Assembly: GCA_035533095.1 (NCBI GenBank)
Contig: DATLUM010000014.1
Coordinates: 1-42,810 of the forward strand
Source: Acidimicrobiales bacterium
GTDB lineage: Bacteria > Actinomycetota > Acidimicrobiia > Acidimicrobiales > Palsa-688
Length of the DNA stretch: 42,810 bases
Direction: 5' to 3'
Shown: positions 2,638-33,348 of the stretch, in pieces
Layout of the letters: every line of letters starts with the position of its first letter
How positions within the stretch are numbered: the stretch's first letter is position 1
The notes under the pieces: model-generated
The model's database searches: none
What the model was told of the DNA's origin: nothing
What the model saw: only the letters and a program-made list of their open reading frames with translations
Made by a program: the position numbers and the translations under genes

Positions 2638-2760
2638 TCCGTGACTGCAAGGGTTCCTTTTCGGCCAGCCCGTCCAGGTCTGATCCCTGAGAACGACCTC
2701 TGGGGTCGAGCGCTTGCACCCCGGCTCAACTCGCCTGGGCAATGTGCCGACAATTGGTGC

Positions 2761-5703
2761 ATGGGGGCAACAGGCGATCCAGATGAGGAGCGCGACTCTT
2801 CGAACCTGACGGTCGCCTTGATCACCGGGTACGTACGGGACCGTGGCGGTGACGCCGCGGTCGAGCGGATGCTCGCCATTGCCGGCGAGACCCGCCCGAT
2901 GGCGGAGCTCCTCGACGAGGGCCGCTGGAGCTCCTATGGCCAGAAGATCCGTCTGTTCGAGGCGGCGATCGCCGTCCTCGGCGACCCGGAGACACCCCGG
3001 CTGATCGGCGCGGCGGTCCTCGAGCGGCAGACCGGTACGGCCATCCGTCTCATGCTCCGGGCGTTGGGCTCGCCGGCGTCGGTGTGCCGGAGCGTGGCCA
3101 AGGCGTCAGCCAAGTTCTCCACCAACTACACGTGCCAGGCACTGTCGGTCGGCCGCGAGGGCGCGGTGATATCCAACCGCCTGCACGATGGGTACGAGCC
3201 GAACATCGTCGACTGCAAGTACACCATCGGCCTTCTCTCGCAGATCCCGGCCTTGTTCGGGCTCGGTCCCGCCCTGGTCGTACACGAGGAATGCCAGGTA
3301 CGAGGTGCCCCGGCTTGCATCTACAGGCTCAAGTGGCGCGCTCGATTCCGCCTGCCCTGGGCTCGGCGCCGGGCCAAGCTCGCCTATCTGGAGGAGGAGC
3401 TGCGCCTGCTGAGCGGGCGTCACGAGGAGCTGCAGTCGACGATCGTAGATCTGGTGTCGCCTGCCGATGTCGACACCGTTCTTCGCCGCATCACCCGGCG
3501 CGCCGCCGACGCGGTGCGAGCCCAGCGCTTTCTCCTCGCCCTCAGTGACGACGCTGAGGGTGTCTCTGTCCACCACGAGGGGATGTCGACCGAAGACGCT
3601 CTTCGGTTGGCCTCCGAGGTGCTGGTCGACACGCCCGACGACTGCGGCGGCTCGAGGCTGATCGTCGATGTGGCGTCGTCCCGACACTTCTACGGGCGGT
3701 TGGTCGCGGTCTACGACTTGGAGCACACCTTCTTTCCCGAGGAGCGGCGGCTCTTCGCCTCGTACGCCCGCCAGGCCGCGGTGGCCCTTGACGCGGCCAC
3801 GGCGCTGGAGGAGGCCCGCCGCCGGGGTGAGACTGCGAGCAAGCTGCTCGAGCTGTCTGGCCAGCTGGCCCAGGCGACCTCGACCGACGAGGTCGCCCAA
3901 CGACTCGCCGACGCGGTGCCAACGGTCATCGGCGCCCACCGGGCCACCGTCCTCCTATGGGATGCCGAGAACGAGGTGCTTCGCGTCCGTGCCCGCGCCT
4001 CACTCGACGATCTCAACCCTCCCGTTCTGCCAAAGGACACCATCTCGGCGACCGACACACCGGTGCTGGGCGAGATGTTCCGGACCCGACAGCCCCAGCA
4101 CATCCATCGCAACACCACCGACCCGTACCTGCAGCAGCGCATGGCGGCAATCGACCTCGAGGAGATCCTCGCCGTTCCCATCCAGAGCGGGAGTGAGATG
4201 TTGGGCGCCATCGCGGCCATGCGGGGTGCCGACTCGCCACCGTTGGTCGACGAGCAGGCCCTGGCCGACCGTCTGACAGGCCTGGCCGACCAAGCCGCGC
4301 TTGCTTTCGAGAAAGTTCGGCTGCTCGAGCAGGAGCGCGAGGCGGTGCGCCGGCTTCAGCGCGACGAGCAACGCATCAAGCAGCTCGCCTATCACGACGC
4401 CCTCACCGAACTACCCAACGGACGGCACTTCTCTGAAGCGCTCGAGACCTGCCTGGCCCAGGCAGAGACTGAGGGACGCCAGCTGGCGCTGCTCTTCTGC
4501 GACCTCGACCGCTTCAAGAACGTCAACGACAGCATGGGCCACGACAAAGGCGACGAGCTTCTGAAGGTGGCGGCGGCACGGCTGCGGGCGTGCATCCGCG
4601 ACACCGACACCCTGGCGCGCCTCGGAGGTGACGAGTTCACCTTGCTTCTCAACGGCGTCACCGGGCCGGAGGATGCCGCGGCCATTGCGGAGCGCGTTGT
4701 TAGGGCGTTCCGGGATCCGATCAATCTTGACGGGCAGGAGCTGTTCCTGTCGGCCAGTGTCGGCGTGGCGCTCTATCCCGACGACGGACAGGATGCTCGG
4801 ACGCTGTTGAAGAACGCAGACACCGCCATGTACGGGGCCAAGCTGGCAGGGCGGAACAACCAGCTCCGCTACGCCCCGGCCATGAACGCCCGGGCTCGGC
4901 AGCTTCTCGAGCTCGAGGCCGACCTTCACGAGGCGGTGCGGAGCGGCCAGCTCGTTGTCCACTACCAGCCGCAGGTGGCCGCGGCCACCGGCGAGGTCGT
5001 GGCCGTGGAGGCCCTTGTGCGCTGGAATCATCCGCGGCGGGGGCTGGTTGCGCCAGGTGAGTTCATTGCCTTAGCGGAGGAGCGGGGCTTGATCGGAGCC
5101 GTGGACGCCTGCGTGCTCTTCGAGGCGGCTGCGCAGTGCAAGCGCTGGACGGACGCCGGGCTCCCACCCGTTCGGGTCGGGGTCAACCTTTCGGCACACC
5201 AGTTCCGGGGCACCGATCTGGTTGACCTGGTGACCAGGGTGCTGCACGATACTGGGGTGCGTCCCGAGCTGGTCGAGCTGGAACTCACCGAGACCGCAGC
5301 CATGCAGGAGCCGGACCGCGTCGCAGACCTCCTGGCCCAGCTGCGCCAACTCGGCGTGGGTCTGGCCTTGGACGACTTTGGCACCGGGTACTCGAGTTGG
5401 ACGCACCTGAAGCACTTCCCGGTGGGCCAGCTCAAGATCGACCGGTCGTTCGTCTCGGGGTTGCCGGAGGACCGCTACGACGTGGCAATCGCCTCCGCCA
5501 CGATCGAGATGGCGCACCTTATGGGGTTGGGCGTGACGGCCGAGGGTGTGGAGACCAGCGCCCAGGCTGAGTTCCTGATCGCTCACGGCTGCGATCTCCT
5601 GCAGGGGTTCCTCTACAGCGAGCCCAGATCGAGCGATGAGATCACCGAGCTTCTGCGGGAAAAGACGGTCGTTGGCGCGCGCAACGCCGCGCTGTCTTCT
5701 TAG
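2761..5703 (+). CDS. V4R-like / GAF / GGDEF / EAL cyclic-di-GMP signalling protein
   Basis: About 980 residues from the ATG at 2761; a longer GTG start at 2641 is possible but adds a proline-rich tail unlike a domain. Order: an N-terminal sensor of ~190 residues ending in VVHEECQVRGAPACIYRL, matching the Cys-containing end of V4R/4VR small-ligand domains; a short coiled coil; two GAF-like domains; then GGDEF (residues 622-626, exact) and EAL (750-752, exact). The RDTD at 613-616 is the inhibitory I-site in its usual place. EAL catalytic signatures (EALVRW, ELTE, LDDFGTG, KIDRSF, EGVE) are present. Both diguanylate cyclase and phosphodiesterase activity are therefore possible. No transmembrane segment is seen, so it should be cytoplasmic and sense soluble ligands. 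Confidence 0.9.
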   Translation: MGATGDPDEERDSSNLTVALITGYVRDRGGDAAVERMLAIAGETRPMAELLDEGRWSSYGQKIRLFEAAIAVLGDPETPRLIGAAVLERQTGTAIRLMLRALGSPASVCRSVAKASAKFSTNYTCQALSVGREGAVISNRLHDGYEPNIVDCKYTIGLLSQIPALFGLGPALVVHEECQVRGAPACIYRLKWRARFRLPWARRRAKLAYLEEELRLLSGRHEELQSTIVDLVSPADVDTVLRRITRRAADAVRAQRFLLALSDDAEGVSVHHEGMSTEDALRLASEVLVDTPDDCGGSRLIVDVASSRHFYGRLVAVYDLEHTFFPEERRLFASYARQAAVALDAATALEEARRRGETASKLLELSGQLAQATSTDEVAQRLADAVPTVIGAHRATVLLWDAENEVLRVRARASLDDLNPPVLPKDTISATDTPVLGEMFRTRQPQHIHRNTTDPYLQQRMAAIDLEEILAVPIQSGSEMLGAIAAMRGADSPPLVDEQALADRLTGLADQAALAFEKVRLLEQEREAVRRLQRDEQRIKQLAYHDALTELPNGRHFSEALETCLAQAETEGRQLALLFCDLDRFKNVNDSMGHDKGDELLKVAAARLRACIRDTDTLARLGGDEFTLLLNGVTGPEDAAAIAERVVRAFRDPINLDGQELFLSASVGVALYPDDGQDARTLLKNADTAMYGAKLAGRNNQLRYAPAMNARARQLLELEADLHEAVRSGQLVVHYQPQVAAATGEVVAVEALVRWNHPRRGLVAPGEFIALAEERGLIGAVDACVLFEAAAQCKRWTDAGLPPVRVGVNLSAHQFRGTDLVDLVTRVLHDTGVRPELVELELTETAAMQEPDRVADLLAQLRQLGVGLALDDFGTGYSSWTHLKHFPVGQLKIDRSFVSGLPEDRYDVAIASATIEMAHLMGLGVTAEGVETSAQAEFLIAHGCDLLQGFLYSEPRSSDEITELLREKTVVGARNAALSS

Positions 5704-22846: not shown

Positions 22847-23692
22847 ATGCCAACCAGGACCGAGGTGCTCCAGTCGATCGGTGACGACTGCGACTACGAA
22901 TCAGCGGCGTCCCGCCTCCACATTCCCGCCGGCCAGGCCTACCTCAAAGCGACCGGCCTCATAGCGACCGGCCTCCCAGCGGACGGCGGCGACACCTTCC
23001 CCCCCGACGAGCATCTGCAGCGCCCCGGCGCTCTCAAGGGCAGCACCCAGCACCTCGTCCACAAGCGGCCGGAGGCGGCCGACCCCACGCGGAAACCGGA
23101 GGTGCATGACTGGATCCGTCGGCGGGTGGCCGCCGACCCCCAGATAACCGAAGCGGCCCGCACCAGGGACGCCGAGCCCGGCGAACCCGTGGATCCCCAG
23201 GACACGGATGTCCGCTTCGTCCTCACCCGCCAGCACGACAAGGTCACCGCGCTGATGGAGCAACTCAAGGCCATACCCGGCGCGAGCAAGGGCGGCGACG
23301 AGCTCGTCGAGCACGCGATGGAGCAGGAGCAGGAAGGGAAGGAGAGCCTGGTCGCACTCGGGCGGGCCGACTCTTCCGGCGAGCAGTTCGACAAGCTGGC
23401 CGAGGAGCTCGAGACGCGGCTGCGAAAGCATGTTGCGTTCGAAGACAGAGTGCTGCTGTCTTTGCCCGAGGTCATGTCCGACGACGACCGGCGGGAGCTC
23501 GGCAACAAGATCCTGCGAGCCGAGAAGCACGCCCCAACCCGGCCGCACCCGCACGCGCCGAAGAAGCCCGGTGGGGCTGTCAAGGCGGCAGCGGCTTCGG
23601 TCGTACCGCGCGATCGCGCGCGTGGCGCATTCGGCAGTCGGCCCGCAGAGCGGGTAGGGCGCGCAAGTAGCGAAACCGAGGAGGACAAGTGA
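22847..23692 (+). CDS. Hemerythrin (HHE)-like protein of the formate dehydrogenase operon
   Basis: 281 residues. The N-terminal ~100 residues (LHIPAGQAYLKATGL … DTFPPDEHLQRPGALKGSTQHLV) belong to a family found next to formate dehydrogenases in actinobacteria, by my recollection. The middle is HHE-like: TRQHDKVTALMEQLKAIPG (His130) and RKHVAFEDRVLLSL (His195, Glu199). The helix that normally supplies HxxxEE between IPGxSKG and GDEL appears to be missing, so the di-iron site may be incomplete. The C-terminus is low-complexity and basic. The stop overlaps the fdhA start (GTGA). A role in oxygen or iron protection of the enzyme is inferred. Confidence 0.75.
   Translation: MPTRTEVLQSIGDDCDYESAASRLHIPAGQAYLKATGLIATGLPADGGDTFPPDEHLQRPGALKGSTQHLVHKRPEAADPTRKPEVHDWIRRRVAADPQITEAARTRDAEPGEPVDPQDTDVRFVLTRQHDKVTALMEQLKAIPGASKGGDELVEHAMEQEQEGKESLVALGRADSSGEQFDKLAEELETRLRKHVAFEDRVLLSLPEVMSDDDRRELGNKILRAEKHAPTRPHPHAPKKPGGAVKAAAASVVPRDRARGAFGSRPAERVGRASSETEEDK
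22948..22977. repeat. 15-bp tandem duplication inside the hemerythrin-like gene
   Basis: AGCGACCGGCCTCAT (22948-22962) is followed by AGCGACCGGCCTCCC (22963-22977), a near-perfect in-frame tandem duplication. It adds five residues, giving ATGLIATGLPADG where one ATGLPADG would be expected. Confidence 0.75.
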
Positions 23693-26600
23693 AGTTCAAC
23701 AACTGGCCCGTGCTCCGCCAGGCACTCGGCGGCGACCGGCTCGGCCGCGGTCACGCCGTCAAGTCGTCGACCTCCTTGCACCTCAGCCCCCGCATCGCCG
23801 AGGCCGACAAGATCGCCAAGTCCGTCTGCCCCTACTGTGCAGTCGGCTGCGGGCAGAACGTGTTCGTCAAGGACAACAAGGTGGTGCAGATCGAGGGCGA
23901 CCCCGACTCGCCGGTGAGCCGCGGCCGGCTCTGCCCGAAGGGCTCGGCCAGCCTCCAGCTGACCACCGGGTCCTCGCGCCGCTTCGAGGTACTCCACCGC
24001 CGGCCCGGTGCGCACGACTGGGAAGTCCTCGACCTCGACAAGGCGATGGACATGGTCGCCGATCGGGTGATCGAGACCCGCAAGCGCACCTGGCAGTGGC
24101 GCGACGAGGAGGGCCGCGACGTGCGCCGGACGCTGGGCATCGCCAGCCTCGGCGGCGCCACCCTCGACAACGAAGAGAACTACCTGATGAAGAAGCTCTA
24201 CACAGCGTTAGGCGTCATACAGGTAGAGAACCAAGCCAGAGTTTGACACTCCTCCACCGTCCCCAGTTTGGGGACATCGTTTGGTAGGGGAGGAGCCACA
24301 ACCTTCCAGCAGGACCTCCAGAACGCCGACTGGATCGTCATCGAGGGGTCCAACATGGCCGAGTGCCACCCGGTCGGCTTCCAGTGGGTGATGGAGGCAA
24401 AGGCGCGCGGAGCGAAGGTCATTCACGTCGACCCGCGTTTCACGCGTACCAGCGCCGTCGTTGACCTCCACGTGCCGCTGCGCGCAGGGACCGACATCGC
24501 TTTCCTCGGCGGGATCATCAACTACGTACTGCAACACGACAAGTACTTCCGCGACTACGTGGTCGCGTACACCAACGCGCCGACGATCATCAACGAGGAC
24601 TTCCGCGACACAGAGGACCTGGATGGCATCTTCTCGGGTCTCAACGAGGAAGAGCGAAGCTACGACTTCCACACCTGGATGTACGAGGGCACCGAGGTGC
24701 AGGCGGCCTCGGGTCAGCGCGAGCAGGAGTACCAGGACCGAGCTGAGGGCGGCGGCCAGGACGGCGGCCAAGGCCAGGACGGCGGCGGCAAATCCCGTCA
24801 GGCCACCTCTTACCAGGCCGGCAGGGGCGAGTCGCACGGCTCGGGCGGTGTGCGCGTCGCCGAGGGGGGAGAGCGCGACGAGACATTGCAGCATCCCCGC
24901 TGCGTGTTCCAGATCCTGAAGCGCCACTACTCGCGCTACACGCCGGAGATGGTGGAGCAGATCTGCGGCGTGCCGCAGGCCACCTTCCTCGAGGTGTGCC
25001 GCACACTGGCCGACGACGCCGGCCCCGACCGCACGGGGGCGTTCTGCTACGCCGTCGGCTGGACCCAGCACACCGTCGGCGTCCAGTACATCCGCACGGC
25101 GGCGATCCTCCAGTTGCTGCTCGGCAACATCGGGCGTCCCGGCGGGGGGATCATGGCGCTGCGCGGCCACGCCAGCATCCAGGGGTCGACCGACATCCCG
25201 ACGCTGTACAACCTGCTGCCGGGTTACATCCCGATGCCACACGCCCACCACGACGAGGACCTCGAGACATTCCTGGAGGGTGCGTCGACGGACAAGGGCT
25301 ACTGGGGCGACATGAAGTCGTACATGGTCAGCCTGCTCAAGGCGTACTGGGGCAGCGCGGCCACACCCGGCAACGATTTCTGTTTCGCATACCTTCCCCG
25401 TCTCACCGGCAGCCACAGCACGTACGAGACGGTCATGGCCCAGATCGACGGGACGTGCAAGGGCTACTTCATCTGGGGTGAGAACCCGGCCGTCGGGTCC
25501 GCCAACGCGAAGATGCAGCGGCTCGGCATGGCCAACCTCGACTGGCTGGTCGTGCGCGACTTCTCCCTGATCGAGTCGGCGACGTGGTGGAAGGACGGAC
25601 CCGAGATCGAGTCCGGCGAACTGAAGACCGAGGAGATCATGACCGAGGTCTTCTTCTTCCCGGCCGCGGCTCACACCGAGAAGAACGGCAGCTTCACCAA
25701 CACTCAGCGGATGCTGCAGTGGCACCACGCGGCCATCGAGCCGTACGGCTCGGCGCGCAGCGACCTGTGGTTCGCGTACCACCTCGGGCGGATCATCCGT
25801 GAGAAGATCGCTGCGAGCGGTGAGGATGCGGACGACCTGAACCGTCCCATACTCGACCTCACCTGGGACTACCCGATCGAAGGGTCCATCGCCGAGCCGT
25901 CCGCCGAGGCGGTGCTTGCCGAGATCAACGGCTGGGACGCCGACGGCCAGCCCCTCGCCTCCTACGAGCATCTCAACGAGGATGGCTCCACCGCCTGCGG
26001 TTGCTGGATCTACTGCGGCGTCTACGCCGACGGGATCAACCAGGCCGCGCGGCGCAAGCCCGGCAAGGAGCAGAACTGGATCGCCAACGAGTGGGGTTGG
26101 GCGTGGCCCGCCAACCGCCGCATCCTCTACAACCGTGCCTCGGCCGACCCCGACGGCAAGCCGTGGAGCGAACGCAAGGCCCTGGTGTGGTGGGACGAGG
26201 AGAAGGCCCAGTGGTCCGGCCACGACATCCCCGACTTCTCGAAGTCGAAGTCGCCGTGGCACCGCCCACCGCCCGACGCGCGCGCAGCGGAAGCCCTGTC
26301 CGGTACCGATGCGTTCGTGATGCAGGCAGACGGCAAAGCGTGGTTGTACGTCCCGGCCGGCCTGACCGACGGTCCGTTGCCGACCCACTACGAGCCGCAG
26401 GACTCGCCGGTGCCGAACCTGCTGTACTCGCAGCAGCGCAACCCGGTGCGCCAGGTCTTCAACCACAAGCACAACCGTTACCACCCGAACCCTTCGGCGC
26501 CGGGGTGGCAGTTGTTCCCTTACGCGATCACCACGTACCGCCTGACCGAGCACCACACCGCCGGCGGGATGAGCCGTTGGGTGCCGTACCTGTCGGAGCT

Positions 26601-27003
26601 CCAGCCCGAGATGTTCTGTGAGGTCTCACCCGCGCTGGCGGCCGAGCGCGGCCTGGAGCACAACGGGTGGGCGACCATCGTCACAGCCCGCAACGTGATC
26701 GAGGCCCGGGTGATGGTCACCGATCGGATCCCGCCGCTGCGGGTCAACGGGAAGGTCATCCACCAGATCGGCCTGCCGTACCACTGGGGGCCCAACGGCT
26801 ACTCCACCGGCGACGCCGCCAACGAGCTGGCCTCCATCTCGCTCGACCCCAACGTGCACATCCAGGAGGTGAAGGCGTTCAGCGGGGACATCCGCCCCGG
26901 TCGCCGGCCGCGCGGTCCCGGCCGGGTAGCGCTCGTGGACGAGTACATCCGCAGGGCCGGTATCGACGAGAACACAGGGACGGAGGTCACTGGTGGCCAT
27001 TGA
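23689..27003 (+). CDS. fdhA: Selenocysteine formate dehydrogenase, catalytic alpha subunit
   Basis: 1104 residues with TGA (24244-24246) read as Sec186. Upstream the frame ends GVIQVENQARV and downstream it continues HSSTVPSLGTSFGRGGATTF, exactly the ARV-(U/C)-H-SST active site of formate dehydrogenases. N-terminal 4Fe-4S ligands are C47, C50, C54 and C82 with the electron-relay Lys84 in LCPKG. The long middle and C-terminal parts match Mo/W-bis-MGD oxidoreductases (IVIEGSNMAECHPVGF; GYFIWGENPAVG; NGKVIHQIGLPYHWGPNGYS). A Gly/Gln-rich insert lies near residues 340-400. No twin-arginine signal is seen. It oxidises formate to CO2, passing electrons to the FdhB Fe-S chain. GTG start with GAGGAGG 4 bases upstream; it overlaps HHE by 4 and fdhB by 11 bases. 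Confidence 0.95.
24249..24295 (+). promoter_or_regulatory. Bacterial SECIS element in fdhA
   Basis: The upper hairpin starts 12 bases after the Sec TGA: GTCCCC (24259-24264), loop AGTTT (24265-24269), GGGGAC (24270-24275), 17 nt overall as in the minimal E. coli element, with a G in the first two loop positions. An outer stem CTCCTCC (24249-24255) pairs with GGAGGAG (24289-24295), and ACC with GGT lies between. Distance and shape fit SelB recognition. The E. coli bulged U is not present here. Confidence 0.85.
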
Positions 27004-27853
27004 CATCGGGCTTCTCGAGAGGGGCGACCCGGCTCAGTGCAGCGGCTACGCGGACGCGCCGCCGCGCATGGGCTTCTTCACCGACACCTCGGTGTGCATC
27101 GGGTGCAAGGCGTGCGAGGTCGCGTGCAAGGAGTGGAACCACGTCCCCGAGGACGGCCTCAACTTTACGGGCATGTCATATGACAACAGCGAGGGTCTCG
27201 GTGCCGACACCTGGCGGCACGTGGCGTTCATAGAGCAGAGGCTGCTCGCCGGTGACGGGCCGGGCGCCGGTGGTGCGGACGGTGCCGGGGTGCGGTGGCT
27301 CATGTCCTCCGATGTGTGCAAGCACTGCACCCACGCAGCCTGCCTCGACGTGTGCCCGACGGGCTCGTTGTTCCGGACCGAGTTCGGGACCGTCGTGGTG
27401 CAGGAAGACATCTGCAACGGCTGCGGCTACTGCATCCCGGCGTGCCCCTACGGCGTGATCGACCAGCGCCACGGCGACGGGCGGGCATGGAAATGCACGC
27501 TCTGCTACGACCGTCTCAGCGTGGGCGCCGAACCCGCGTGCGCCAAGGCCTGCCCGACCGACTCGATCCAGTTCGGCCCTCTCGACGAGTTGCGCGAGCG
27601 TGCGCAGCAGCGGGTGACCCAGCTGCACAACGCCGGCGTGACCGATGCCCGGCTCTACGGCGAGGACCCCGACGACGGGGTCGGCGGCGACGGTGCCTTC
27701 TTCTTGTTGCTGGACGATCCCGAGGTGTACGGGCTGCCACCCGACCCGGTCGTCACCACACGCGACCTGCCGGCGATGTACAGGCGGGTGGCTGTCGCCG
27801 CCGGCGCCTTGGTCTCCGCGGTAGCCCTGGCGTTCGCAGGAGCCAGGCGATGA
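26993..27853 (+). CDS. fdhB: Formate dehydrogenase iron-sulfur beta subunit
   Basis: 286 residues from GTG 26993. Four cysteine groups, CIGCKACEVACKEWN, CKHCTHAACLDVCPTG, CNGCGYCIPACPYG and CTLCYDRL…CAKACPTD, give four 4Fe-4S clusters, as in FdnH/DmsB-type electron-transfer subunits. A single C-terminal hydrophobic helix (VAVAAGALVSAVALAFAG) anchors it to the membrane. It would carry electrons from FdhA to the membrane subunit. The start overlaps the end of fdhA, and the stop overlaps the next ATG (ATGA), so translation is coupled. Confidence 0.93.
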   Translation: MAIDIGLLERGDPAQCSGYADAPPRMGFFTDTSVCIGCKACEVACKEWNHVPEDGLNFTGMSYDNSEGLGADTWRHVAFIEQRLLAGDGPGAGGADGAGVRWLMSSDVCKHCTHAACLDVCPTGSLFRTEFGTVVVQEDICNGCGYCIPACPYGVIDQRHGDGRAWKCTLCYDRLSVGAEPACAKACPTDSIQFGPLDELRERAQQRVTQLHNAGVTDARLYGEDPDDGVGGDGAFFLLLDDPEVYGLPPDPVVTTRDLPAMYRRVAVAAGALVSAVALAFAGARR

Positions 27854-28896
27854 GCGGGGCCGTCACCAAGGAGGGGATGCAGGACGTCCGCCCGGGCCGC
27901 GAAGCGGTCAGCGAGGTCCAGGGATCCGGGGGGAAGAGGCCGCGGTCGCGCGGTCTTGGCCGCGGCGACGGCGAGCAGCCGGTTGTCGGGGACGCGACGT
28001 TCCGCTCGTATTACGGCAAGCCGATCATCAACAAGCCGGTGTGGGAAGCGCCGGACATCGCCGGCTATCTCTTCCTCGGCGGCCTCGCGGGCGCCAGTTC
28101 GGTGATGGCGGCGGGCGCGGCGGCGACGGGCCGGCCGGCGCTCGCCCGGGGGTTGAAGGTGACGAGCACCGCCGCGGTCGCGCTCTCCGGCGTCGCCCTG
28201 GTGCACGACCTGGGGCGCCCGGCCCGGTTCTTCAACATGCTGCGGGTGTTCAAACCGACGTCGCCGATGAGCGTCGGGTCGTGGTTGCTGGCGGGTTACG
28301 CGCCGTTCTCCGCGGGCGCCAGCTTCAGCGCGGTGACCGGTCTCCTGCCGGCGATCGGGGCGGTTGGCACCGCCGGCGCAGCGCTCATCGGCCCGGTCGT
28401 CGCGACCTACACCGCAGCGCTCGTCTCCGACACCGCCGTGCCGGCATGGCACGACGGGCATCGCGAGATGCCCTTCGTGTTCGCCGCCTCCGCGCTGAGC
28501 GCGGCGGCGGGCATGGGGATGCTGGCGGCGCCGATGCCCGAAGCCGGGCCGGCCCGGATGCTCGGAGTCGTCGCCGGCGCGGCGGAACTCGGTCTGCTCG
28601 ACGTGATGAAGCGCAGCATGGGCTTGGCCAAGGAAGCGTTCACGGCGAGCGAGAAGGCGCACCGCTACGAGCGGGCGGCGCAGATCGCCACTGGCATCGG
28701 GATCGCCGCCGGCGCCGTGTTGGGCAAGCGCAGCCGGATCGCCTCGGCTGTCGCCGGCGCCGGCCTGCTCGTCGGGTCCGCGCTGAGCCGCTTCGCCATC
28801 TTCGAGGCCGGTCTCGAGTCGGCCGAGGACCCCCGCTACACCGTCGTCCCGCAGCGCCGGCGGCTCGAGTCTCGTGTGTCTTCTGAGATCTCGTGA
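27850..28896 (+). CDS. NrfD/PsrC-like membrane subunit of the formate dehydrogenase
   Basis: 348 residues from the ATG at 27850. After a ~55-residue soluble, basic N-terminus comes SYYGKPIINKPVWEAPDIAG, then YLFLGGLAGASSVMAAG, typical of the NrfD family that binds menaquinone. About eight hydrophobic helices follow (LKVTSTAAVALSGVALVHDL … PVVATYTAALVSDTAVPAWH). It anchors FdhAB and probably passes electrons to quinone. There is no FdnI-type di-heme cytochrome gene, so this is the NrfD-type form of the complex. It is the last gene of the fdh transcript, followed by a strong palindrome. Confidence 0.88.
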   Translation: MSGAVTKEGMQDVRPGREAVSEVQGSGGKRPRSRGLGRGDGEQPVVGDATFRSYYGKPIINKPVWEAPDIAGYLFLGGLAGASSVMAAGAAATGRPALARGLKVTSTAAVALSGVALVHDLGRPARFFNMLRVFKPTSPMSVGSWLLAGYAPFSAGASFSAVTGLLPAIGAVGTAGAALIGPVVATYTAALVSDTAVPAWHDGHREMPFVFAASALSAAAGMGMLAAPMPEAGPARMLGVVAGAAELGLLDVMKRSMGLAKEAFTASEKAHRYERAAQIATGIGIAAGAVLGKRSRIASAVAGAGLLVGSALSRFAIFEAGLESAEDPRYTVVPQRRRLESRVSSEIS

Positions 28897-29216: not shown

Positions 29217-29312
29217 GGAGGTGTTCGAGCGCCTGGTGGGCTCCGCCGCCTTCAAAGCGGTTGGCTGTGGAGAACCCACAGCGGCGGGTTCGATTCCCGT
29301 CCACCTCCGCCA
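29217..29312 (+). tRNA. selC: tRNA-Sec (anticodon TCA)
   Basis: 96 nt including encoded CCA (29310-29312). Acceptor GGAGGTG pairs with CACCTCC, discriminator G73. Anticodon loop CTTCAAA holds TCA at 29252-29254 within a 5-bp stem. The long variable arm GCTGTGG/CCACAGC closes an AGAAC-type loop, and the T arm is CGGG TTCGATT CCCG. The extra-long acceptor/T domain and long variable arm distinguish it from Ser/Leu tRNAs and match E. coli tRNA-Sec in size. It decodes the fdhA UGA with SelB. It ends 6 bases before selA. Confidence 0.95.
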
Positions 29313-29318
29313 CTCCCC

Positions 29319-30599
29319 ATGAACCGGCCTCCGTCGGTCGACCGGCTCGCCCGCCATCTCGCCGAATCAGGCTTCGGTGACCTGCCCGATCCGCTGCTGG
29401 TCGCGGCCGCCCGCGACGCCGTCGCTCTCTCTCCGGACGACCCCTGGGAAGAGGCAGCCGCCATTGCCCGATCCTCGAGGCAGCGGCTCCTCCAGCCCGT
29501 CATCAACGCCACCGGCGTCATCGTCCATACCAACCTCGGCCGCGCGCCGCTCTCCGTCGGCCACGACGTCCACTACGCCAACCTCGAGCTCGACCTGGGC
29601 ACGGGACGCCGCGGCGACCGCTCGTCGCATGCTTCGTCGCTGCTCGCCAGGCTTTCGGGCGCCGAGGCCGCGACCGTGGTCAACAACGGCGCCGCCGCCC
29701 TCCTCCTCGCCCTCGCCACCGTTCCCCCCGGGCACGAGGTAATAGTCAGCCGGGGCGAGCTGATAGAGATCGGCGGCGGGTTCCGCATCCCCGAAGTCCT
29801 CGCGACGTCCGGCGCACGCCTCAGGGAGGTCGGCACCACCAACCGCACGAGACTCAACGACTACCGCGAGGCGATCGGGTCCGACACCGCGGCCATCCTC
29901 AAGGTTCACACCTCCAACTACCGCATAGTCGGCTTCACCGAGTCCGCCGGCCTCCCCGGGCTCGCCGGCCTCGCGCACGAGCACGGCCTACCTCTCATCT
30001 TCGACGCCGGCTCCGGCCTCATCGACGAGGGCTGCCAGTGGCTGCCCGCCGGCCCGCCGCCGTGGCTCCGGGGCGAACCCGCTGTCCGCCAGTCGATCGC
30101 CGCCGGCGCGGATCTGGTCACCTTCAGCGGGGACAAGCTGTTCGGCGGTCCGCAGGCGGGGATCATCGCCGGCAAGGCGCCGCTCGTACAAGCGTGCAAG
30201 ACGCACCCTCTCGCACGTGCCCTGCGGCCGGGCCATCTGGTTCTTCGGTCGCTACAGGACGTCGCGCTCAGCTACCTCCGGCGCGACGCCGGCGCAACGC
30301 TTCCGCTGTGGCGCATGGCGACGGCCCCCGTCGAGGATCTCCGCCGGCGGGCCGAAGCGTTATCTCACGGCGAGGTCGTCGACTGCGCGTCGGTTATGGG
30401 CGGCGGCACACTCCCCGGCCGCACCATCCCCTCCGCCGGCATTGCCGTCGACGGCGACATCACCGGACGCCTCCGTTTGACGGACCCACCGGTGATCGCC
30501 AGGGTCGAAGCGGGCCGCACCTTCTGTGACCTTCGCACCGTGCTGCCGGAACAAGATCCGGCCCTCGCCAAGGCACTTGCCAAGGCGGTTGCCGGATGA
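29319..30599 (+). CDS. selA: L-seryl-tRNA(Sec) selenium transferase
   Basis: 426 residues from the ATG at 29319. PVINATGVIVHTNLGRAPLS, GDRSSHASSLLARLSGAEAA, VNNGAAALLLAL and the PLP lysine in FSGDKLFGGPQAG (Lys273) identify SelA. It converts Ser-tRNA-Sec to Sec-tRNA-Sec using selenophosphate from SelD. It is slightly shorter than E. coli SelA (463), with no visible gap in core motifs. The start lies only 6 bases after the tRNA CCA, with no Shine-Dalgarno. The stop overlaps selB (ATGA). Confidence 0.95.
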   Translation: MNRPPSVDRLARHLAESGFGDLPDPLLVAAARDAVALSPDDPWEEAAAIARSSRQRLLQPVINATGVIVHTNLGRAPLSVGHDVHYANLELDLGTGRRGDRSSHASSLLARLSGAEAATVVNNGAAALLLALATVPPGHEVIVSRGELIEIGGGFRIPEVLATSGARLREVGTTNRTRLNDYREAIGSDTAAILKVHTSNYRIVGFTESAGLPGLAGLAHEHGLPLIFDAGSGLIDEGCQWLPAGPPPWLRGEPAVRQSIAAGADLVTFSGDKLFGGPQAGIIAGKAPLVQACKTHPLARALRPGHLVLRSLQDVALSYLRRDAGATLPLWRMATAPVEDLRRRAEALSHGEVVDCASVMGGGTLPGRTIPSAGIAVDGDITGRLRLTDPPVIARVEAGRTFCDLRTVLPEQDPALAKALAKAVAG

Positions 30600-32332
30600 C
30601 GGTCATCGCGACCGCCGGTCATGTCGACCATGGCAAGTCGACTCTCGTACGCGCGCTCACCGGCACCGACCCCGATCGCTGGGCCGAGGAGAAACGGCGC
30701 GGCCTCACCATCGACCTCGGCTTCGCCAACACCACCCTGCCGTCGGGGGAGCAGATCAGCTTCGTCGACGTTCCTGGCCACGGCCGCTTCGTAGCCAACA
30801 TGCTGTCCGGTGTCGGCTCGGTCGACGCGTGCATGTTCGTCGTCGACGCCAACGAGGGATGGCGCGCCCAGTCGGAAGAGCACCTGCGGATACTGGAACT
30901 GCTCGGGATGCGCGCCGGGGTGATAGCGATGACCAAGGTCGCATCCCTCGACGAGGACCTGACCACGCTCGCCGCTGAGGAGATCACCGAGCACGTGCAA
31001 GGCACGTTCCTGCAGGACGCGCCCGTCGTCGCTGTCGACGCGCCCGCGGGCCGCGGGATTGACGACCTCCGCCAGGCACTCGACCGCCTCGTCTCGTCGC
31101 TTCCGCCGGCGGTCGACGGATCGAGGCCACGTCTGTGGGTCGATCGTTCGTTCTCGATCCGCGGCGCAGGGACGGTGGTGACCGGCACGCTGCTGGGAGG
31201 CTCGCTGTCCGCCGGTGACGAACTCGTGATCGAGCCGGGTGCGCGCAGGGTTCGCGCGAGAGGGCTGCAGAGTCACAACCAACCCTGCGATCACGCAGGT
31301 CCGGGCCGGCGTGTCGCGGTCAACCTCACCGGCGTGGAGGCCAAGGAGATCCGTCGAGGGCAAGCTCTCGTGCGCCCGGACCAGTGGCACGTCACCGCGG
31401 CCGTCGACGTCTCGCTCAGCGTTCTCGACGCGTCGCCGCAGCCGGTCACCAACCGCGGCGCGTTCGCTGTCCACCTCGGCACCGCGGCGTTGCCGGTTCG
31501 CCTGAGGCTGATCGGCTCGCGTGACCAGATCGCTCCAGGGGAAGACGCACCCGCGAGGATGTGGCTCCTGGCAGGTCACCGGGTCACCGCTGTCCCCGGC
31601 GACCGCTTCGTCTTGCGCGAGCTCGGCCGCGGCCAAACGATCGGCGGCGGCGTGGTACTCGACGTCGACCCCGTTCTTCCGGCGTCGAAGGCGGATCCCT
31701 CCCTTTCGGTGGAGCGCGTCGTGGAGGAGCGTGGGTGGGTGCGTGCTGATCACCTGGAGCGCCTGACCGGCCGCCCCGCCACACCAACCGTCGGGGCCTG
31801 GGTCGTGGCGCCGGCGGCCGAGGCCAGGGCGGCTGCACGTATCAGCGAGCTTTGCGAACACGCCGGCGCCGGCGGGGTCGACCTGGCACAACTCGGGGAG
31901 ACCGAGCTGGCACTGCTGCACAGCGGCATCGACGGCGTCACGGTTTCGGGGCCCAAGGCATACCTCGATTCGCTGGTGCCTCGTGGAATCAGCGAGCGCG
32001 CGTCAGCGGTCCTCAATCTCTTGGAGAAAGACAGCATGTCTCCGCCGGACCTCCCCGTCGAGGACAGGCGCTCCCTGCGCGAGCTAGAGGCGACCGGGCT
32101 GGCGACTCAAGCGGGTGAGATCTGGTTCGCGTCCTCCGCAGTGGAGGCCGCTGTCGACCTGCTGCGCGCGCTGCTGCGTGCGAAGCCCGACGGCTTTACG
32201 GTCTCGGACGCCCGCCAGGTGCTCGGTACGTCGCGCAAGTACGCGCTGCCGTTGCTCGCGCACCTGGATGCCAACGGCATCACGCGTCGTAAGGGGGACA
32301 CCCGTGTCGCGGGACCGAGGATGGGTCTGTGA
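30596..32332 (+). CDS. selB: Selenocysteine-specific elongation factor SelB
   Basis: 578 residues. GTP-binding motifs AGHVDHGKST, RGLTIDLGFA and DVPGHGRF sit in the first 80 residues, followed by EF-Tu-like domains II-III (RSFSIRGAGTVVTGTLLGG). The C-terminal winged helices end with SRKYALPLLAHLDANGITRR, the conserved SECIS-binding repeat. It brings Sec-tRNA to UGA codons next to SECIS hairpins. The length is close to E. coli SelB (614). It overlaps selA by 4 and selD by 4 bases, so it is translationally coupled. Confidence 0.95.
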   Translation: MTVIATAGHVDHGKSTLVRALTGTDPDRWAEEKRRGLTIDLGFANTTLPSGEQISFVDVPGHGRFVANMLSGVGSVDACMFVVDANEGWRAQSEEHLRILELLGMRAGVIAMTKVASLDEDLTTLAAEEITEHVQGTFLQDAPVVAVDAPAGRGIDDLRQALDRLVSSLPPAVDGSRPRLWVDRSFSIRGAGTVVTGTLLGGSLSAGDELVIEPGARRVRARGLQSHNQPCDHAGPGRRVAVNLTGVEAKEIRRGQALVRPDQWHVTAAVDVSLSVLDASPQPVTNRGAFAVHLGTAALPVRLRLIGSRDQIAPGEDAPARMWLLAGHRVTAVPGDRFVLRELGRGQTIGGGVVLDVDPVLPASKADPSLSVERVVEERGWVRADHLERLTGRPATPTVGAWVVAPAAEARAAARISELCEHAGAGGVDLAQLGETELALLHSGIDGVTVSGPKAYLDSLVPRGISERASAVLNLLEKDSMSPPDLPVEDRRSLRELEATGLATQAGEIWFASSAVEAAVDLLRALLRAKPDGFTVSDARQVLGTSRKYALPLLAHLDANGITRRKGDTRVAGPRMGL

Positions 32333-33348
32333 CATCGAGCACGGTGAAGCTCACCGAGTGGACCAAGTGCGGCGGGTGCGCGGCCAAGTGGGGCGGCGCG
32401 CCTCTATCGGATCTGCTGCGGGGGCTCGACCCCGTCGCGGGCGAGGACCTTCTCGTCGGGCTGGCGCCTTTCGACGACGCGGCTGTCTACCGCCTCTCGC
32501 CTGATCTCGCGCTCGTGTCTACGACTGACTTCTTCCCGCCGCTCGTCGACGACCCATCCGACTTCGGAGCCATCGCGGCCGCCAACGCGTGCAGCGACAT
32601 CTTCGCAATGGGAGGCCGCGTCGTGCTGGCCCTCAACGTCGCGGCGTTCCCCGAGGGCTTCCCCGATGAGGCGATAGCGGCGATCCTCGAGGCGGCCGCG
32701 GCGAAGGTGGCCGAAGCGGGCGGCACCGTCGCCGGCGGCCACACCATCAGCGCCGCCGAGCCGATCTTCGGTCTCGCGGTGCAGGGTCTTGTTGATCCGT
32801 CGCGTGTGTGGACCAAGTCCGGTGTCGAGCCGGGTGATCGTCTCGTGCTGTCGAAACCTGTCGGATCGGGGATCGTCCTCGCCGGTGGCAGCCCCGATGA
32901 CAGGTCGGCCGCGATCGAGACGATGTGCACTCTCAACTCGGCAGCTGCGGACACACTCCATGAGGTCGGCGAGGTGCACGCGGTCACCGACGTGACCGGG
33001 TTCGGCCTCGCCGGCCACTCCTGGGAGATGGCCGAGCGCAGCGGGATGATTATCCGGCTGCATTCCACCAGCATGCCGCTCTACCCCGGCGCCATCGAGG
33101 CTGCTCGGCGCGGCACCCGCACGGGAGGTGATGCCCGAAATCGCACCTACCTGGCGGGCCACTTCACGAGCAGCGCCGCACCCGAACTCGAGGCGCTCGC
33201 GATCGACCCGCAGACTTCGGGCGGGCTGCTCGCTGCCGTGCCCGAGCCTGTGGCCGCGCGGCTGGTCGCGGCGGGATGGTGGGAGGTCGGCGACGCTGTG
33301 CCCGGCGATGCGGCCGGTCTTCGTGGTCCGGGGGTCGAGCTGCGCTAG
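32329..33348 (+). CDS. selD: Selenide, water dikinase (selenophosphate synthetase)
   Basis: 339 residues from GTG 32329. The N-terminal catalytic motif TKCGGCAAKWG has Cys14/Cys17 and Lys20, a Cys-type SelD with no in-frame TGA. The rest is typical: STTDFFPPLVDDPSDFGAIAAANACSDIFAMGG (ATP/Mg-binding), AGGHTISAAEPIFGLAVQG, and DVTGFGLAGHSWEMA. It makes monoselenophosphate from selenide and ATP for SelA. It completes the selC-selA-selB-selD set. A weak hairpin follows at 33412-33436. Confidence 0.95.
   Translation: MTSSTVKLTEWTKCGGCAAKWGGAPLSDLLRGLDPVAGEDLLVGLAPFDDAAVYRLSPDLALVSTTDFFPPLVDDPSDFGAIAAANACSDIFAMGGRVVLALNVAAFPEGFPDEAIAAILEAAAAKVAEAGGTVAGGHTISAAEPIFGLAVQGLVDPSRVWTKSGVEPGDRLVLSKPVGSGIVLAGGSPDDRSAAIETMCTLNSAAADTLHEVGEVHAVTDVTGFGLAGHSWEMAERSGMIIRLHSTSMPLYPGAIEAARRGTRTGGDARNRTYLAGHFTSSAAPELEALAIDPQTSGGLLAAVPEPVAARLVAAGWWEVGDAVPGDAAGLRGPGVELR

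Follow-up and report, generated by a model that had tools for sequence, protein, structure and literature searches.

The window analysed here, a 42,810-nt stretch of a contig from Acidimicrobiales bacterium, very probably encodes (at a probability of about 0.97, as judged from sequence) a selenocysteine (Sec)-containing, membrane-anchored formate dehydrogenase of the FDH-N type, with SECIS-directed Sec at codon 186 of fdhA. The codon, the homology of the protein, the conservation and covariation of the hairpin, and the machinery genes support this reading directly. The features concerned are collected in Table 1.

Table 1. Features of the fdhA-sel region of the window
Feature	Position	Strand	Evidence
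GGAGG, likely ribosome-binding site, 4 nt 5' of the fdhA GTG start	23680..23684	+	direct sequence reading
fdhA, FDH-N-type formate dehydrogenase catalytic subunit	23689..27003	+	1104 codons plus stop, predicted Sec at codon 186
In-frame TGA, predicted selenocysteine codon 186 of fdhA	24244..24246	+	frame reading, structure alignment, relatives
Predicted SECIS apical hairpin, 6-bp stem, loop AGUUU with G23-U24	24259..24275	+	fold, conservation, covariation
fdhB, 4Fe-4S ferredoxin-type subunit	26993..27853	+	Pfam PF13247; TIGR01582 185 bits, under cut-off 334.7
NrfD-type membrane subunit	27850..28896	+	Pfam PF03916 on longer ORF 27295-28896
selC, tRNA-Sec, anticodon TCA	29217..29312	+	ARAGORN; Rfam RF01852 66.7 bits, gathering score 47
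selA, L-seryl-tRNA(Sec) selenium transferase	29319..30599	+	PF03841; TIGR00474 425 bits, cut-off 268
selB, Sec-specific elongation factor, C-terminal winged helix	30596..32332	+	PF09107; TIGR00475 297 bits, cut-off 242
selD, selenophosphate synthetase	32329..33348	+	PF00586/PF02769; TIGR00476 328 bits, cut-off 125

The fdhA reading frame and its in-frame TGA

The sole internal stop of the fdhA frame is a TGA between NQARV and HSSTV, after which the frame remains open for 918 codons. This reading confirms the single break described by the first-pass annotation, which had also foreseen that an automated caller would split the gene with a false start at 24268; the mechanical list of open reading frames does exactly so, cutting fdhA into 23689-24246 (185 aa) and 24268-27003 (911 aa, TTG start). 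With C written for Sec, the whole protein scored 1986.3 bits against the NCBIfam model NF041513 formate_DH_Act (cut-off 1400) and 959.3 bits against TIGR01553 (formate dehydrogenase-N alpha; cut-off 814.2). FdhA could be aligned with the structures 1kqf and 1h0h in two stretches, from residue 25 or 41 to 336 and from 395 to approximately 1067. The X in the sequences of FDH-N (PDB 1kqf) and of 1h0h, which we take to be Sec, falls on codon 186, where TGA is followed by CAC (His), in agreement with the earlier placement of the TGA at the catalytic position of formate dehydrogenases.

The end of the gene at the TGA in the mechanical list is what would be expected if the codon were a true stop or a pseudogene lesion and fdhA were broken. 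This explanation is extremely improbable given that TGA recurs at this codon in 62 further rows of the family, with TAG in another 2 (a few of these being one genome met in two collections), that the remaining 918-codon frame is open, that third codon positions within the hairpin are under constraint, and that a full sel set adjoins fdhA. The recurrence of the codon across the family likewise shows that it did not arise as an isolated sequencing error.

A SECIS-like hairpin downstream of the TGA

A 17-nt hairpin had been described as starting 12 bases past the TGA, and it was found there as GUCCCC-AGUUU-GGGGAC. Numbering from the U of UGA as position 1, the stem is formed by positions 16-21 with 27-32 and the loop by 22-26. 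A 60-nt stretch with the hairpin folds with a minimum free energy (MFE) of -25.6 (z -2.49), and 3 of 200 shuffled sequences fold as well. Considering TGA triplets of any frame within the window, the exact six-pair geometry with loop G23-U24 at the same offset occurs after a single one of the 437 on the + strand and after none of the 496 on the - strand. A looser SECIS-like hairpin, defined by our own reading of the bSECIS limits with a stem of at least 5 bp, follows 50 of 437 (+) and 41 of 494 (-), and therefore the presence of a hairpin alone would prove little.

The bSECIS model, as set out in the accessible text of PMC13188914, comprises a loop of 3-9 nt, a stem of 4-16 bp, a G at one of the first two loop bases with G or U usually after it, 16-37 nt between UGA and the apical loop, and an MFE of -7.5 or lower. 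The hairpin lies within each of these limits, with a 5-nt loop and 6-bp stem (3 nt and 7 bp if A22 and U26 pair), loop bases A-G-U-U-U, 18 nt from UGA to the 5-nt loop (19 nt if A22 and U26 pair), and an MFE of -10.7. The hairpin is classified as a SECIS element. A covariance model trained on 53 FdhA SECIS and run on the genome detected the fdhA site with an E-value of 3.9e-13. The search for further selenoproteins in the genome yielded two chance-level places with this model (E 5.8 and 8.3), while a fixed-base pattern search returned 8 places versus 9 for its control; the model leans toward formate dehydrogenases and the pattern toward the fdhA loop, such that SECIS elements of a different shape may have escaped both searches. 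Of the 8 pattern places, the complete six-pair stem forms at the fdhA site alone, against 1-4 pairs at the other 7.

Conservation and covariation among FdhA relatives

Relatives were drawn from 30 loci of 61 genomes (the window's own included) and from named bacterial genomes (the best 80 of 438). The codon at the Sec site was read in 108 of the 111 sequences (the window and 110 loci), with no site obtained for L034, L037, and L098. A copy of the window (L009) and a locus with a broken reading frame (L031) were left out of the counts, and five distant molybdoenzyme rows (3 TGA, 2 TGC) were kept apart from those of the FdhA family. The resulting 101 family rows carry TGA (63), TAG (2), TGC (33), or TGT (3) at the Sec site; several represent one genome twice (e.g. 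L010 and L041), and distinct sequences were counted as well. One locus titled Acidobacteriota (L066) has an FdhA row identical to that of L013, a locus whose genome belongs to the same family as the window, and is likely a mislabelled or mis-binned record.

The six-pair stem with G23-U24 was present in all 65 TGA/TAG rows. Of the 36 Cys rows, none forms the full stem, and G-U occupies positions 23-24 in 4. Among distinct sequences, the strict hairpin was found in 53 of 53 Sec and 0 of 35 Cys sequences. On the FdhA tree the difference between Sec and Cys corresponds to a single change (quick method; support 93), so the contrast between hairpin and codon amounts to one evolutionary event and the small Fisher p-values are not the main argument. 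More weight rests on the conservation and compensatory changes seen among the Sec genes themselves. All six stem pairs remain intact in every cell (100%) of the 53 distinct Sec sequences. Both partners change in pairs 18-30 and 21-27, a number of such pairs reached by 7 of 500 shuffles, and one partner varies in pair 17-31; pairs 16-32, 19-29, and 20-28 are invariant and hence uninformative on covariation. The covariation score of the stem was reached by none of 500 shuffles and was lost when the partners were slid by 1-3 columns. The covarying hairpin that the first-pass annotation looked for in relatives is thus present, with compensatory changes in two of the six stem pairs.

Constraint is also visible at the codon level. 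On the tree, U24, which is a third codon position, stayed unchanged among the Sec rows, whereas 11 changes are placed among the Cys rows. Every one of the 65 Sec rows has either GGT (36) or AGT (29) as codon 7; downstream in the same genes, GGT accounts for 446 of 5222 Gly codons and AGT for 78 of 2854 Ser codons. Codon 6 encodes Pro in all 65 Sec rows (CCC in 64, CCG in 1), whereas the 36 Cys rows have Val, Ala, or Thr there, suggesting that the SECIS RNA dictates the residue.

These patterns bear on the possibility that simple read-through or suppression inserts Trp, Arg, or Cys at the UGA, with the hairpin reflecting coding-sequence conservation only. The region does encode a conserved peptide, and loose hairpins abound in this GC-rich window (the 50 of 437 TGA sites given above), but such an account is very improbable in view of a third-position base, U24, that is fixed on Sec rows only and in codons rare in these genes, a codon 6 that differs between Sec and Cys rows, and stem pairs that covary. 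A further difference was observed at Ser codon 188 (24250-24252), for which 59 of the 65 Sec rows use TCC or TCG and the remaining 6 use AGC, whereas 34 of the 35 distinct Cys sequences have a codon starting with AG; this may reflect ancestry or an extra RNA constraint.

Selenocysteine machinery and neighbouring genes

The Sec-decoding genes selA, selB, selC, and selD all lie inside the window (29217-33348), ending at most approximately 6.4 kb from the fdhA stop. Of 9 tRNA-Sec matches in the genome (3.44 Mb, 96.8% complete), this one alone exceeds the Rfam cut-off. According to the ORF coordinates, selA/selB and selB/selD overlap by four bases each, suggesting co-transcription of the three genes. 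The C-terminus of SelB matches 1wsu and 2ply, Sec-specific elongation factors that are presumably the Moorella SelB-SECIS structures. Between fdhB and selC, the NrfD-type subunit had a weak TIGR03148 match alone among NCBIfam models (19.6 bits), and we infer that its gene starts at the ATG at 27850. Elsewhere in the window, positions 2641-5703 (+) encode a 1020-aa GAF-GGDEF-EAL protein, likely a cyclic-di-GMP enzyme.

By analogy with the known mechanism of Sec decoding, Sec would be synthesised by the products of selD, selA, and selC, a short way downstream of fdhA, and SelB carrying Sec-tRNA(Sec) would bind the apical hairpin 12 nt past the UGA, with its C-terminal winged helix contacting loop bases G23-U24. 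Sec would then be delivered at codon 186 in place of termination, where it would ligate the Mo or W of the cofactor and take part in formate oxidation by the active enzyme.

The distribution of tRNA-Sec was counted by hand across 66 genome entries, part of those behind the loci. Among Sec-coding genomes 43 of 45, and among Cys-coding ones 5 of 21, had a match of at least 60 bits, a threshold set after viewing the score list; two genomes appear twice, and the distinct counts are 42 of 44 and 5 of 20. At the Rfam cut-off of 47 bits the Sec count stays at 43 of 45 and the Cys count rises to 7 of 21, through two matches of 47.5 and 48.8 bits. The Sec-coding genomes G031 (L031, with the broken fdhA) and G075 (L060), both draft assemblies, had no tRNA-Sec over the Rfam cut-off. 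Five genomes with a Cys-coding fdhA (G079, G086, G087, G088, and G091; loci L067, L077, L078, L079, and L085) have a strong tRNA-Sec (76.9-78.4 bits), which may point to a further selenoprotein or to a second fdhA that codes for Sec. Within the loci, many of which are short, none of the 38 TGC/TGT rows (distant rows included) has selA, selB, selD, or tRNA-Sec alongside, while tRNA-Sec adjoins 22 of 68 TGA rows and 0 of 2 TAG rows, a count in which the window lies outside the database and is scored as a miss.

Form of the element and the question of a variant

The predicted 60-nt fold includes a 7-bp outer stem (24249-24255 with 24289-24295) plus two further pairs, in keeping with the enclosing stem described by the first-pass annotation. 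As a conserved feature the outer stem was rejected, since 74.4% of cells pair among the 53 distinct sequences and 90 of 500 shuffles pair as much. Covariation of the outer stem was likewise rejected, with 198 of 500 shuffles reaching its score.

The absence of a bulged U and the 5-base loop, both pointed out previously, hold in all 65 Sec rows. A bulged U in the upper stem is listed as conserved in bacterial SECIS in the available part of PMC8704476; here U17 can pair with A31. The bSECIS model, in the accessible text of PMC13188914, lists no bulge. Among seven non-actinobacterial Sec genes and one further actinobacterial one, chosen by hand rather than by survey, the U17 bulge is absent from those of Arthrobacter, Thermomicrobium roseum (Thermomicrobiota), and Indioceanicola profundi (Alphaproteobacteria) and present in four alphaproteobacterial formate dehydrogenases and E. 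coli fdhF. Cys-coding Chelatococcus and E. coli plasmid genes fetched alongside had no such hairpin.

It had been proposed that the element may define an actinobacterial SECIS variant, marked in part by its AGUUU loop. The loop is as described, but it is a minority form among Sec rows (AGT at codon 7 in 29 of 65, against GGT in 36). A distinct actinobacterial class, bulge-free, with an outer stem, and recognised differently by SelB, would account for the missing U17 bulge in 65 of 65 main-family Sec rows and in the 3 of 3 TGA rows of distant FDH-like relatives. It is nevertheless unlikely, because Thermomicrobium roseum and Indioceanicola profundi share the same geometry, the outer stem lacks conservation, the SelB winged helix matches 1wsu and 2ply, and the element fits the bSECIS model as published in the accessible text of PMC13188914; the actinobacterial variant is not upheld as worded. 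A broader idea, somewhat less doubtful but still improbable, is that bulge-free hairpins, with U17 paired and loop G23-U24 free, form a functional subclass in which SelB would open the U17-A31 pair or skip the bulged-U contact. If true, this subclass would span two kinds of actinobacterial formate dehydrogenases and reach Thermomicrobiota and some Alphaproteobacteria.

Comparison with known systems

Returning to a SECIS-directed Sec at codon 186, this reading has clear precedents. In the consulted portion of PMC4498112, FDH-O of Streptomyces incarnatus NRRL8089 is described with an in-frame UGA directly followed by a SECIS and with selA-D clustered nearby. The window, from a different species, resembles that actinobacterial locus in its UGA and SECIS and in selA/B/C/D near the alpha-subunit gene, a likeness of description rather than of hairpin sequence. 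An internal UGA in fdnG of Corynebacterium aurimucosum, clustered with sel genes, is recorded in the part of PMC2830990 that concerns it, and Sec-to-Cys changes in FdhA are covered in that of PMC1794560.

E. coli fdhF (L138) likewise has UGA followed by CAC, with G16, U17, G23, and U24 at identical distances from the UGA; in fdhF U17 is unpaired and the loop has 6 nt, whereas in the window U17 can pair with A31 and the loop has 5 nt. UAG-Sec formate dehydrogenases of Geodermatophilaceae are reported in the accessible text of PMC5330540, citing Mukai 2016. Consistent with this, Blastococcus (L056) and Geodermatophilus (L059) have TAG at the fdhA Sec codon and the same hairpin geometry as the window, which in contrast combines UGA with a tRNA-Sec of anticodon TCA.

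A limited literature search, beyond which relevant papers may exist, returned no paper joining Acidimicrobi*, selenocysteine, and formate dehydrogenase. Given the precedents, as far as the consulted parts of PMC4498112, PMC2830990, and PMC1794560 describe them, the locus is an ordinary and already known kind of selenoprotein locus. NCBIfam already has a model for the protein family (NF041513), and the arrangement is real but well known. Ordinary in other respects, the locus offers a guard against annotating a single selenoprotein gene as two fragments, and the set of Sec and Cys orthologues shows neatly, as a natural example, how a SECIS hairpin constrains codons and, it seems, one residue of the protein encoded across it.
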